In this document: in pieces, positions 6,046 to 12,527 of the stretch
How positions within the stretch are numbered: the first letter of the stretch is position 1
Layout of the letters: each line of letters begins with the position of its first letter
NCBI GenBank assembly: GCA_026395435.1
Contig: JAPLYT010000001.1
Span: 1-38,617 of the forward strand
DNA from: Candidatus Saccharimonadota bacterium
Lineage (GTDB): Bacteria; Patescibacteriota; Saccharimonadia; Saccharimonadales; AWTP1-31
DNA: 38,617 bases
Reading direction: 5' to 3'
The notes under the pieces: model-generated
What the model was told of the DNA's origin: nothing
Databases searched by the model: none
What the model saw: only the letters and a program-made list of their open reading frames with translations
Translations under genes and position numbers: made by a program

Positions 6046-6192
6046 TATAGTATCCTTTCAAATTAAAAAATCAGTCGGTGAAGCCTGATCATAGGACTGT
6101 GCTGAAGCATTATTTGCTCAGGCTTCAACGATATTGAAGCACAGTCCATGTAGACTGAGGAGTAGCTGCAACTGGTTGAAAACTGAAATCAT
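6046..6192 (-). promoter_or_regulatory. structured 5' leader A (candidate riboswitch-like transcription attenuator)
   Basis: Homologous to 9954-10112. Core 6065-6160 on minus strand: CUCAGUCUACAUGGACUGUGCUUCAAUAUCGUUGAAGCCUGAGCAAAUAAUGCUUCAGCACAGUCCUAUGAUCAGGCUUCACCGACUGAUUUUUU. P1 10 bp, two inner hairpins, terminator-like hairpin with U6. Confidence 0.7.
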
Positions 6193-6199
6193 AAATAAC

Positions 6200-6227
6200 A
6201 TTATAACACCAGAACATAGATTGTCAA
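6200..6227 (-). promoter_or_regulatory. sigma70-type promoter for leader A
   Basis: Minus strand TTGACA (6227-6222), 16-nt spacer, TATAAT (6205-6200): both consensus hexamers. Confidence 0.8.
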
Positions 6228-8046: not shown

Positions 8047-9546
8047 TTATATGAATAGCTTGATCGATTGCCCCGTAAGTACACGGAAGTCATATCCTGT
8101 ATTCTCAATTGCCTTGATTAATGAAAATGGCTCAGCTGCCTCAAAACCAATAACGACGCTTCCGGTGTCGAGACCCTGCCCTCGATAATGGAAGAGGCTG
8201 ATATTCCAATTGTCGCCCATCTTTTGCAAGAAATCTTGGAGTGCTTTTGGTCGTTCAGGAAAATTAATTTCATAGAGTTGTTCGTTGTTAGCTTCACTGC
8301 TTTTACCACCAATCATATGGCGAATATGCTCTTTGGTGAGATCGTCGTCCGATAAATCCTGAAACGTATATTGGTGTTGTTTGAGTTTTGAAAGTAGATG
8401 TTGCTTGTCGTTAGCGTCACGAAGATTTATCCCGATGAGGATGGTGGCATCAGATCGTTCATGTAGGCGATGGCTAAACTCGCTGATACTGTGGTCGCCT
8501 ATTATCTCACTACAAAATGCATGGAGGGCACCTGGTTTTTCTGGTAGGGTGACGGCAAATAAGGCCTCCTTGTTGCTGCCCAGCAGAGTTCGTTCTGCCA
8601 CAAACTGTAATCGCTCAAAGGTCATATTGGCACCCGAACAAATGGCAACACACGTGGCTTGGCTCAGATCATTTTCTTTTGAATATTCTTGCAAGCCAGC
8701 AATGCCAAGCGCGCCGGCTGGCTCCACGATAGCCCTCGTTTCCAGATATATTGACTTAATGGCTGCGCAAATCTGATCATTGTTTACGGTGATCATTTCG
8801 TCGACGTACTTTTGGGCTATATCGAATGTGAGCTCTCCGACTTGCTTCACGGCAACTCCGTCAGCAAATATACCCACATGATCAAGCACGATACGCTTAT
8901 CGGCAGCGAGCGATGCTTGCATGGCATTGCTATCATCGGGCTCCACGCCAATGATTTTTATTTCTGGCCGGAGCGTTTTGATGTATTGGGCGATGCCAGC
9001 CAGCATACCCCCGCCGCCAACACATATGAATATATGCGTCACGTCAGGAAGTTGGTCGAGAATCTCAAGTCCGATTGTTCCCTGCCCGGCGATAACGAGC
9101 GGGTCGTCAAATGGGTGTATGTACGTCCGACCTGATTTGGCAACCAATGTTTGAGAATGGTCAAACGCTTCGGAATAACTATCTCCTGAAAGTACCACGA
9201 CTGCTCCGTAACCTTTTACTGCTTCAATCTTAATTGCTGGCGTTGTCCGGGGCATGACAATGATTGCAGAGATACCTAATTTTTGAGCACTCAGCGCAAC
9301 GCCTTGCGCGTGATTCCCCGCACTAGCGCAAATGACACCTCGGTCTTTTTCTTGCTGAGTCAGGCTGGCTATTTTGTTATACGCACCACGAATTTTGAAT
9401 GAGTGAACTGGCTGCAGATCTTCTCGTTTGAGATAGACCTGCGTGCCAAGTTCATTGCTCAGAGTAGCTGCCTTTTCGAGGGGCGTTTTTATAGCAACGT
9501 CATATACATGGGTTTGTTTAGTTTGGTTTACGGGGTCGTTCATCAT
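8047..9546 (-). CDS. ilvA: threonine ammonia-lyase (biosynthetic type, with C-terminal ACT-like domains)
   Basis: VYLKREDLQPVHSFKIRGAYNKIASL PLP-lysine motif, SAGNHAQGVALSAQKLG, GGGGMLAGIAQYIK; C-terminal ACT-like repeats. Confidence 0.95.
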   Translation of the reverse strand: MMNDPVNQTKQTHVYDVAIKTPLEKAATLSNELGTQVYLKREDLQPVHSFKIRGAYNKIASLTQQEKDRGVICASAGNHAQGVALSAQKLGISAIIVMPRTTPAIKIEAVKGYGAVVVLSGDSYSEAFDHSQTLVAKSGRTYIHPFDDPLVIAGQGTIGLEILDQLPDVTHIFICVGGGGMLAGIAQYIKTLRPEIKIIGVEPDDSNAMQASLAADKRIVLDHVGIFADGVAVKQVGELTFDIAQKYVDEMITVNNDQICAAIKSIYLETRAIVEPAGALGIAGLQEYSKENDLSQATCVAICSGANMTFERLQFVAERTLLGSNKEALFAVTLPEKPGALHAFCSEIIGDHSISEFSHRLHERSDATILIGINLRDANDKQHLLSKLKQHQYTFQDLSDDDLTKEHIRHMIGGKSSEANNEQLYEINFPERPKALQDFLQKMGDNWNISLFHYRGQGLDTGSVVIGFEAAEPFSLIKAIENTGYDFRVLTGQSIKLFI

Positions 9547-9581: not shown

Positions 9582-9953
9582 TTACGCCGGGAGGTCTGCC
9601 CGATCAGTTCCCTGAGGTACTGTTACTATTGCCGGAATATCAAGGATACCTTCGGTGCCAGAATAGGGTATTAGAACGCCTTCAATCTGTACTCCGTGCG
9701 CGTCTTGATAATGCTTTGCCCACTCTCCTGCTGCTAGCGTACTTACTCGAATAAGACGTTCAAAGTGTGGTGCCATGTCCTCATGTTCCTGTGCGGCTGT
9801 TTGGTATCGGTCAATGTCAAAGCTTAAACGTGCGAGGATCCGTGATAGTTTCTCTTCTTTTGTCCGTGGGTCACGATCTAGAACAGCTTCCTCTTCTTTG
9901 GTATAGGGCCTCACTTTTCGGGGGTTTTCCGTTGTTTCGTATTCAGTAAACAT
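9582..9953 (-). CDS. hypothetical protein, 123 aa, downstream of structured leader B
   Basis: ORF; AAAGGAAGAACTATG gives a good RBS. Confidence 0.7.
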   Translation of the reverse strand: MFTEYETTENPRKVRPYTKEEEAVLDRDPRTKEEKLSRILARLSFDIDRYQTAAQEHEDMAPHFERLIRVSTLAAGEWAKHYQDAHGVQIEGVLIPYSGTEGILDIPAIVTVPQGTDRADLPA

Positions 9954-10112
9954 AGTTCTTCCTTTACATTAAAAAATCAGGCGGTGAAGCCTGATTGTGA
10001 GCTGTGCTAGGCGGTGGTACCGCTCAGGCTTCAGTCATGGTGAAGCACAGCCCTGTAAGTCTGAGGCTGAGAATAATTTGCTGTGTAGTTTTTTGCACGC
10101 GTTGATTCATTA
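9954..10112 (-). promoter_or_regulatory. structured 5' leader B (second copy of the candidate attenuator)
   Basis: Core 9971-10065 on minus strand: CUCAGACUUACAGGGCUGUGCUUCACCAUGACUGAAGCCUGAGCGGUACCACCGCCUAGCACAGCUCACAAUCAGGCUUCACCGCCUGAUUUUUU. Same architecture as leader A. Confidence 0.7.
9971..9996 (-). terminator. intrinsic terminator within leader B
   Basis: Minus strand AATCAGGC-TTCACC-GCCTGATT followed by TTTT: 8-bp stem plus U-run, about 15 nt before ATG. Confidence 0.8.
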
Positions 10113-10118
10113 CATCTA

Positions 10119-10147
10119 GTTATAGCAAGAAGTTACAGATTGATCAA
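10119..10147 (-). promoter_or_regulatory. promoter for leader B
   Basis: Minus strand TTGATC (10147-10142), 17-nt spacer, TATAAC (10124-10119). Confidence 0.65.
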
Positions 10148-10157
10148 GGATACGCGG

Positions 10158-12488
10158 CTAGGACATTTGATTGAGCTTGAACTGTGTGTAGCGTTCTGCG
10201 GCCAGGCGGGTGAGTTCTTCGTCCTCACCTTGATTGACGAATTTCATCGCTTCAGCAAGCATCGGGTGAACCTGGGCGACTTTCTCGTGCATTTGTTGGA
10301 CAAGTTTGCGATAGCCAGGGTGGCCTTGCGGGCTGGTGCGCAATTCGTGGAAGTGGAATGCCTCGCGGGCGTTGTAAGTCATCTTCCATCGCATGCGGTG
10401 TCCGAGAAGCGTGGCATATTGCGCTTCGAGAGCATAGCCTTTTTCTTGGAGCAAGCTATAGAGCCCGAGGCTAATATCGAAGCATTCTTCGAAGAGATCG
10501 ACGAGATCAGCATCCTCAACAAGTTTAGGAAGTTCATAACCGTATCTCGGTGTAAGCTGTTGCCATTCGAGATCATCGACCATGCGGTGTCGTTGGAGGT
10601 CACGGAAAATTCCATAGTCACACACCAAGTCCCAACTGTAGTGGGCTTTCTCGAGAGCTCGCCCTGGTTTGTGTCGACGATTAAGCCGTTCACCGACGTA
10701 TGCGGTCAGGACTGATGATTTCTGGCCATATGACCACTCGGCTACCTGCTGTCTGATCTCATCCAATGATAAGTGGCTTTGGTCGTAGAGCATGTCGGGT
10801 ACGAGATCGAATTCGTTACGTGGCCATACGTCAGTAAGTCGAACGGGCTGCTCGTGTTGGCCGTAGTTTTCGGGGAGTAACTCGTGGGCAATGTCCGCCA
10901 CTGCTTTGGCAGTGTTGGCACGGTAGGCGATGAGTGCCCCACCACGATCTGGCTTGTCGGCTCGCTCGAGGAATGTTGGCAATACCTTTCTGGCTTCTTC
11001 GAGCAGAGCATTCCCGGCAGTAATTGCTTCGGGGAGTGGATCACTCAGTAAATGCATAATGAGGCTTTCAAGTGATTGGCCGGATGCATAGATCCCGACG
11101 GTAGATTTAGTAGCTACCGGTAGTACTGCTCGAATGGCGTCGCAGGCTTGTGCCCGGGTAGCACCTTTCCAGGCGATATCCCGCTCTTCTGCCGGAGTAG
11201 ATGACTGGTCTTGCACGTAGGCGGTGAGCTTGTGAACCATTTCTGAATATTTATCGAAGATACGATCCATGGCATGAATGTATGAGGCTTTGGTGGCGTC
11301 GTCGAAATGAGTCGGCGTGTGATAGCGATAGTTGCCATCAGTGTCTTTTTGATCGAAATAAATATAGCGAGTTGACTGCTCCAGATAGGCTGCCAGTCTG
11401 CCCCACTCAAGTTTTTTGGTCAGCAGATTGCTGGCGTTTTCGAATACAAAATGGAGACCCACTAGTTGCTGGACGGAGTCATCGCCGTAGGCGGTAATAA
11501 CGCGTTGCAATAGTTTCTGGTCTTTGCCGGCAGCCCCTGCAAATTCGTCGAGGATGGTGATACGCATATCGTCACTTCGACGGCTCAAGCGAGCCATGGC
11601 GGCTGCAATCATGGTAGGACTCAGATGTTCCGTGAAGGCATAGACGTCGCCGGAAGCGTCGGTCACGGCATCCTTCAAGAATTCATTTCCACGGGGTGTA
11701 ATGGTGTAATTGCCATCTTTGCTTTTGATGACAAATTTTTCTTTGTCAGACACGACTGCCACTTCAGGAGTGACGGCTTGAAGAACTGGCTTGGCTGATT
11801 TGGCTGGTAGCATAGGCTGTATTGTCTCCCACAGGTAGTTATTGATAGTGTCTATATCGAGTAGCTGACCGCTTCTGACGCAGTCAATTCGCTTAAAATC
11901 TCGCGGGAATAGCTGGCACAGATCGTCGTATACTTCGACTGATTTTTGGAGGTGCGCAAGATCTGCTTCGTGGATGTCGCGCTTTCGATCGGTATATTCA
12001 CGCGTCTCTTTTTGATCGACTAATTGTTGCGCGGTTTCTGCCGGGACTCTAAGCACGAAGCTTTTGTGTGGACGAGGTATTTTGAGCATGACAAATTCGA
12101 GGTTATCGAGCCAGATGAAGTAGCCGCGGCGTTCTTCTTCGTTCCGGAATTTGGTGCCCTGGTGAGCCATGTTGGATCCAGTAAAACGGTTGGCCAGGAC
12201 TACTTTACCCTCGCTGAGTGCCTTTCGAATTTCGGTAGACGCTTCATAGCGATCGAGTGCGTAAAACAGCGAGCCGGTGTATGGACCGACGTCTTCGGCA
12301 GTGCCATATTTTCCGTTGAGATATTCTTTTACAAAAAAACTGGAAGGATGTGAATACTGCGGGAAATCAAACGTCGCTACATCGTAGCCATTATTTCGAA
12401 GTCGCTCGGCCAGCAGCGTAAACTGCGTGCCCTTGCCTGATCCATCGGTCCCTTCTATGACGATAAATAAACCTTCTGTGCTTTGCAT
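10158..12488 (-). CDS. fusion protein: dTMP kinase (N-term) + tandem ThyX-like flavin-dependent thymidylate synthase domains
   Basis: N-term IVIEGTDGSGKGTQFTLLAERLR...ANRFTGSNMAHQG (Tmk). Then two ThyX-like units: ...WGRLAAYLEQSTRYIYFD and ...LQRHRMVDDLEWQQLTPRYGYELP. Start at 12488 (SD GGAAGGACAGATC) preferred over 12509. Confidence 0.85.
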   Translation of the reverse strand: MQSTEGLFIVIEGTDGSGKGTQFTLLAERLRNNGYDVATFDFPQYSHPSSFFVKEYLNGKYGTAEDVGPYTGSLFYALDRYEASTEIRKALSEGKVVLANRFTGSNMAHQGTKFRNEEERRGYFIWLDNLEFVMLKIPRPHKSFVLRVPAETAQQLVDQKETREYTDRKRDIHEADLAHLQKSVEVYDDLCQLFPRDFKRIDCVRSGQLLDIDTINNYLWETIQPMLPAKSAKPVLQAVTPEVAVVSDKEKFVIKSKDGNYTITPRGNEFLKDAVTDASGDVYAFTEHLSPTMIAAAMARLSRRSDDMRITILDEFAGAAGKDQKLLQRVITAYGDDSVQQLVGLHFVFENASNLLTKKLEWGRLAAYLEQSTRYIYFDQKDTDGNYRYHTPTHFDDATKASYIHAMDRIFDKYSEMVHKLTAYVQDQSSTPAEERDIAWKGATRAQACDAIRAVLPVATKSTVGIYASGQSLESLIMHLLSDPLPEAITAGNALLEEARKVLPTFLERADKPDRGGALIAYRANTAKAVADIAHELLPENYGQHEQPVRLTDVWPRNEFDLVPDMLYDQSHLSLDEIRQQVAEWSYGQKSSVLTAYVGERLNRRHKPGRALEKAHYSWDLVCDYGIFRDLQRHRMVDDLEWQQLTPRYGYELPKLVEDADLVDLFEECFDISLGLYSLLQEKGYALEAQYATLLGHRMRWKMTYNAREAFHFHELRTSPQGHPGYRKLVQQMHEKVAQVHPMLAEAMKFVNQGEDEELTRLAAERYTQFKLNQMS

Positions 12489-12527
12489 GATCTGTCCTTC
12501 CCCCACCACAGTTTAGGTCGTCGCGTA

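Follow-up and report, generated by a model that had tools for sequence, protein, structure and literature searches.

The window, meaning the whole stretch of 38,617 nucleotides analysed here, carries two similar leaders, A and B, in front of different genes of a Candidatus Saccharimonadota bacterium. An earlier note had interpreted them as a cis-acting RNA switch shared by different genes, which raises the question of what signal this RNA reads and what its targets have in common. On the evidence described below, A and B are very probably ribosome-mediated transcription attenuators for branched-chain amino acids (BCAA).

Leaders A and B and their neighbouring genes

Both leaders are encoded on the minus strand, as are all features of the window given below. 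B begins at the -35 box TTGATC (10147-10142) and ends immediately 5' of the ATG at 9953. Aligned over ~90 nt, A (6060-6150) and B (9966-10055) are 86% identical. Both fold better than shuffled sequence (z -2.7 and -2.9), and a search for their common pattern gave two hits in the 938-kb genome and none in a reversed control. The shared layout described in the earlier note is real, with helices, invariant pair, terminators and promoters all present as stated. Specifically, the promoter sequence claimed for B was recovered in a promoter scan as TTGATC (10142-10147) and, 17 nt further on, the -10 box TATAAC (10119-10124), with a predicted transcription start at ~10112, 1-2 nt 5' of a leader ATG. 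A has a promoter as well (-35 box TTGACA, 6222-6227; -10 box TATAAT, 6200-6205), with the start predicted at ~6193, at the leader ATG.

The 5' arm of helix P1 (GGGCUGUGC at 10045-10053 in B, with the codons Gly-Leu-Cys; GGACUGUGC at 6139-6147 in A) pairs with a 3' arm at 9999-10008 in B (AGCACAGCUC) and 6094-6103 in A (AGCACAGUCC). Comparison of GGACUGUGCU/AGCACAGUCC in A with GGGCUGUGCU/AGCACAGCUC in B bears out the compensatory changes reported previously, an A-U pair becoming G-C and a G-C pair becoming G-U. Strand 2, the 5' strand of the antiterminator, holds the stop codon of a leader ORF (ACUGAAGCC UGA at 10024-10035 in B; GUUGAAGCC UGA at 6118-6129 in A). Its partner, strand 3 (UCAGGCUUCA at 9985-9994 in B and 6079-6088 in A), overlaps the 5' arm of the terminator in B. 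The 'invariant switch pair' UGAAGCCUGA/UCAGGCUUCA of the earlier note does exist and is the same in both leaders (10033-10024 with 9994-9985 in B; 6127-6118 with 6088-6079 in A); it represents the pairing of the terminator's 5' arm with the antiterminator strand, which lies where the ORF ends and includes the stop codon. The intrinsic terminator of B (AAUCAGGC UUCACC GCCUGAUU plus a U-run, 9971-9996) is indeed the stronger one, with 8 bp (AAUCAGGC/GCCUGAUU) compared to 6 bp in A (GAUCAG/CUGAUU plus a U-run, 6065-6090).

The first gene after B encodes a 123-aa protein (P0001; 9582-9953), and A is followed by the gene of a 216-aa orphan protein (P0002; 5395-6045). The view that B precedes an 'unrelated gene' is right for these two first genes, which are unrelated to each other, but the second gene after B is ilvA (8047-9546), encoding the biosynthetic threonine ammonia-lyase (TIGR01124, 694.9 bits; cut-off 411.3), which makes sense of B. 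Directly upstream of B lies a 783-aa ORF (10158-12509) that combines a thymidylate kinase domain with two segments similar to Thy1 (ThyX); genes similar to this ORF flank the leader in other members of the family. Searches with the Rfam covariance models (amino-acid leaders, T-box, riboswitches) returned no match to A or B at gathering score and none of relevance up to E 10. The only Rfam match across the window, above its gathering score, was the ribosomal protein L10 leader (RF00557; 7293-7435) upstream of rplJ.

Leader peptide and alternative RNA pairings

Both leaders contain the short ORF mentioned above, which the earlier note had missed. In B (10024-10110) it encodes MNQRVQKTTQQIILSLRLTGLCFTMTEA, with the control codons Ile-Ile-Leu and the stop codon within the antiterminator strand; in A (6118-6192) it encodes MISVFNQLQLLLSLHGLCFNIVEA, with Leu control codons. 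The idea of a cis-acting RNA switch is correct with regard to the mutually exclusive terminator and antiterminator, but a ribosome translating the Leu/Ile-rich peptide is the most likely reader of the signal.

In A, B and nearly every other copy of the element, the leader ORF runs through P1 into the antiterminator strand. The frame is open into strand 2 in 70 of 71 copies and ends with LCFxx[VIATG][EG]A in 65, the stop codon being located in strand 2 or just 3' of it. Over the ten codons 5' of P1 in the 71 copies, Leu, Ile and Val together account for 51.5% of frame 0, compared to 17.3% of frame 1 and 5.9% of frame 2, and stop codons for 0.1% of frame 0 versus 8.5% and 3.1% of frames 1 and 2. 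Codon -4 is Leu in 68 of the 71 copies, and relative to the downstream genes the control codons favour CUC, CUA, CUU and AUU. Where the promoter match is good, most loci have a predicted transcription start ~0-3 nt from a leader ATG. Shine-Dalgarno sequences are mostly absent at the leader ATG and mostly present at the downstream gene. Most divergent copies outside the model-building set also have leader ORFs rich in Leu, Ile and Val. Several of these lack both GLCF and VEA; here the frame was read by eye, a fixed-frame script having missed it.

Covariation was analyzed in an alignment of 69 copies. Changes on both sides were found in 6 of 9 pairs of P1 and likewise in 6 of 9 pairs of the antiterminator helix between strands 2 and 3 (2:3). 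Jointly, 12 of 18 pairs were double-changed, with 30 double-change cells compared to 5.4 in shuffles, and 96.4% of the cells were paired, compared to 27-43% after sliding of the strands. A further helix, P2 (UUCA/UGAA), was paired in 98.6% of cases, with double changes in 2 of 4 pairs. An intrinsic terminator was present in 66 of 71 copies (versus 9% of shuffles); in 53 copies, the terminator 5' arm shares 4 nt or more with strand 3. P1 pairing is kept in two loci in which the peptide changes from LCF to SCF (L059) or to QCF (L096). Since the peptide changes where P1 covaries, it appears to be the RNA pairing, rather than the peptide sequence, that is conserved. An additional pairing in which codons -7 to -1 would protect strand 2 was considered and rejected as weak, with mean z scores of -0.83 (nucleotide shuffles) and -0.30 (codon shuffles).

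Distribution, downstream genes and alternative explanations

A covariance model built from A and B identified these two copies in the 938-kb genome, with the next matches at noise level, and a single copy in every one of the six remaining family genomes; in total, copies were detected in 65 of 294 genomes of the order. A second model, built from the 69 aligned copies, extended the element to 78 of the 294 genomes, usually with one copy per genome. Three additional candidates in the genome of the window were rejected, two for showing no leader (C6:10709 and C1:4350) and one for scoring only E 5 (C17:222878). No convincing copy was detected outside the order in 379 sampled genomes of the phylum, under strict filters that could miss weak copies; three matches from there (L158, L160 and L161) resemble ordinary terminators that lack a leader ORF. 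When named genomes were scanned for the exact pattern, the matches were mainly Candidatus Saccharibacteria and Saccharimonadales assemblies, so that the DNA of the window almost certainly belongs to a Saccharibacterium; the matches in Collimonas, Neisseriaceae, Erysipelotrichaceae and Bacteroidales fit only part of the model. Viral and phage collections contained no relatives. Note that one full-length element (L125, genome G160) lies on a contig titled 'Chlamydiae bacterium', which our genome set places in the order, so that the title is probably wrong. In another genome (G038), two copies (L076 and L078) with near-identical surroundings (the same small gene, rplJ and rplL) lie near the ends of two contigs and may represent an assembly duplicate or a strain mix.

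We next turn to the genes downstream, with enzymes named by NCBIfam. LeuA-type synthases (15 loci) and small orphan proteins are frequent as first genes, and IlvB or IlvA occur in other loci; rplJ-rplL are located further downstream of the attenuator in many loci of the order. In one genome (G018) the element precedes ilvC-ilvD-leuB-ilvA. At least two Ile codons were found in none of 15 LeuA leaders and in 13 of 17 IlvA/IlvB leaders (Fisher p 7e-6, a statistic that ignores shared ancestry). Per eight codons, LeuA leaders contain on average 0.07 Ile and 5.0 Leu, compared to 2.35 Ile and 2.65 Leu in IlvA/IlvB leaders. The two types occur in tandem in one genome (G193), where a Leu-type leader (LALALLGL) precedes LeuA and an Ile-type leader (IVIIILGR) precedes a small gene and IlvB. 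Of the two leaders in the window, the Ile-Ile-Leu leader B stands before the 123-aa orphan gene and ilvA, and the Leu leader A before the 216-aa orphan gene. The regulon suggested previously, with shared control of different genes, is supported: placement is non-random and the control codons fit the gene. The element combines the features by which attenuators are recognized, namely a control-codon ORF, a codon-pathway match, an intrinsic terminator and a mutually exclusive, covarying antiterminator.

The orphan proteins gave few clues. P0001 belongs to no Pfam, NCBIfam or PHROG family and had no relative in 60 genomes searched. Comparison with a local collection of 2,180 ORFs linked its helical part to the second gene in another attenuator operon, that of genome G064 (L170; E 8e-7), and its tail resembles, by eye, a ~Y-[AS]-G-T-E motif near the C-terminus of several first genes. 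P0001 resembles two neighbouring small genes of the G064 operon joined into one, the helical part being assigned by score and the tail by eye. Structure prediction for P0002 (pLDDT 36) and P0001 (66, helical) identified no function from either model. Many first genes (for example L079, L081, L105, L107 and 9582-9953 in the window) encode small, diverse proteins poor in leucine and lysine; measured against longer neighbouring proteins only, they contain about half as much leucine and 0.4 times as much lysine. In several of them, Y-x-G-[TDE]-E occurs as a C-terminal motif ahead of an [FW]xAN[ML]P-like end.

Three other explanations of the element were weighed. A metabolite-binding riboswitch, in which P1, P2, P3 and a pseudoknot form an aptamer directly sensing an amino acid or a related molecule, would account for the covariation of P1 and for the constant distance of 15 nt that separates the CTG of P1 and strand 2 in 70 of 71 copies. 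However, P1, P2 and strands 2 and 3 account for the conserved letters, while elsewhere in the enclosed region, and in the linker, both sequence and length are variable. An aptamer would also leave the reading frame, the placement of start and stop codons and the run of Leu, Ile and Val codons unexplained, and no Rfam riboswitch matched. This reading, which was dropped when the leader ORF and its codon runs were found, is very unlikely. We consider it equally improbable that the element is an arrest-peptide attenuator, with the nascent GLCFxMVEA stalling the ribosome in response to a small molecule: the C-terminal GLCFxxVEA is kept in most copies, but this conservation follows from the RNA pairing, and the peptide is lost where P1 or strand 2 covary (L059, L096 and divergent copies) while the pairing is kept.

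The remaining alternative is that transposition spread the element as a mobile or palindromic repeat (REP-, RUP- or MITE-like), named in the earlier note as what would overturn its interpretation. Two similar copies, 4 kb apart and in front of different genes, might suggest such an origin. This reading is already contradicted by the distribution: no genome has more than two copies, and in many genera these often occupy conserved sites near rplJ/rplL or BCAA genes. In addition, the copies are bounded by a promoter upstream and by the terminator U-run and a start codon downstream, making a mobile repeat an almost negligible possibility. Attenuation by a ribosome translating the leader peptide is the reading followed below.

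Proposed mechanism and biological role

The attenuation mechanism proposed for A and B builds on what can be read in the DNA, namely an ORF with control codons, alternative pairings, terminators and the agreement between codon type and gene. Transcription would start at or next to the leader ATG, rendering the leader ORF almost leaderless. With leucyl- or isoleucyl-tRNA plentiful, the ribosome would reach the stop codon and cover strand 2, leaving strand 3 to the terminator and the gene off. When this tRNA is scarce, the ribosome would stall on the Leu or Ile codons 5' of P1, allowing strand 2 to pair with strand 3, so that the terminator would be blocked and the gene transcribed. We infer the stalling, the read-through and the role of P1, which might be a protector of strand 2 or part of a pseudoknotted antiterminator. 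A would be a Leu-type switch controlling the 216-aa orphan, and B an Ile-type switch controlling the 123-aa orphan and ilvA.

When nested folding was run with a ribosome masked at the stop codon, 64 of 65 loci preferred the terminator to the antiterminator. In these pseudoknot-free folds, the antiterminator gained the upper hand only if the ribosome stalled between about codons -4 and +2, with its leading edge at P1, and in at most 24 of 65 loci; stalls at codons -5 to -8, the site of the Ile runs, left P1 and the terminator in place. For leader B (12-nt footprint), the antiterminator was ahead only at codons -1, 0 and +2. The mechanism therefore needs either a pseudoknot of P1 and 2:3 or folding kinetics. 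The mean duplex energies (P1 -18.3, 2:3 -18.3 and terminator -10.0 kcal/mol) suggest that the pseudoknot of P1 and 2:3 could be more stable than P1 plus terminator and outcompete it.

Attenuators of the leuL/ilvL type in Proteobacteria consist of a short ORF with Leu, Ile or Val codons and alternative terminator and antiterminator structures upstream of leu and ilv genes. The Saccharibacterial leader resembles them in these features and in its leu/ilv targets, but differs in having no Rfam leader match, in its ORF being predicted as nearly leaderless, in the location of strand 2 inside the P1 helix and in the small orphan genes that often follow. The ilvB-II motif/ilvBNC attenuator of Corynebacterium has a leader ORF with Ile, Leu and Val codons (PMC10272879, PMC11857589), and part of the P1 loop of the motif pairs with a terminator strand as antiterminator (PMC10272879). 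By description, the two are alike in the ORF and in the P1 loop supplying the antiterminator strand, and are set apart by target range: ilvB-II is confined to one genus and to ilvB, whereas the Saccharibacterial elements precede leuA, ilvB, ilvA and orphans. In the LEU element of Actinobacteria, a leucine-codon ORF with a possible pseudoknot lies upstream of leuA, and the Leu codon run pairs with the leuA Shine-Dalgarno box (PMC1262725). The leucine-codon ORF and the possible pseudoknot are shared; what distinguishes the Saccharibacterial element is its covarying antiterminator together with an intrinsic terminator. Open-licence literature on leader peptides in Saccharibacteria or Patescibacteria yielded no leader-peptide attenuator.

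Of 294 genomes of the order, 2 were positive for IlvD (PF00920), compared to 14 of 14 controls. It is absent from the other 292, though IlvA, IlvB or LeuA are common beside the attenuator, and none was found in the genome of the window. IlvD, dihydroxy-acid dehydratase, is needed for the synthesis of all three branched-chain amino acids, so that in the genome of the window the purpose of placing ilvA under such control is hard to see, a point against the proposed mechanism. The switch thus persists mostly in likely auxotrophs; judged from IlvD, most carriers of the attenuator are probably auxotrophic, in which case it would sense supply from outside. Saccharibacteria are thought to obtain amino acids from outside, and Patescibacteria in general have been described as lacking amino-acid synthesis (PMC11665869). 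We tentatively suggest that the attenuator may have been kept as a starvation sensor for external, probably host, amino acids after BCAA synthesis was largely lost, and rewired to fast-evolving, Leu- and Lys-poor small proteins acting in response to host or nutrient loss.

In conclusion, the element adds a covarying RNA family that is absent from Rfam. A conserved Leu/Ile starvation switch would name the genes, many of unknown function, that are turned on at BCAA shortage, and the response of Saccharibacteria to this shortage would thereby become testable.
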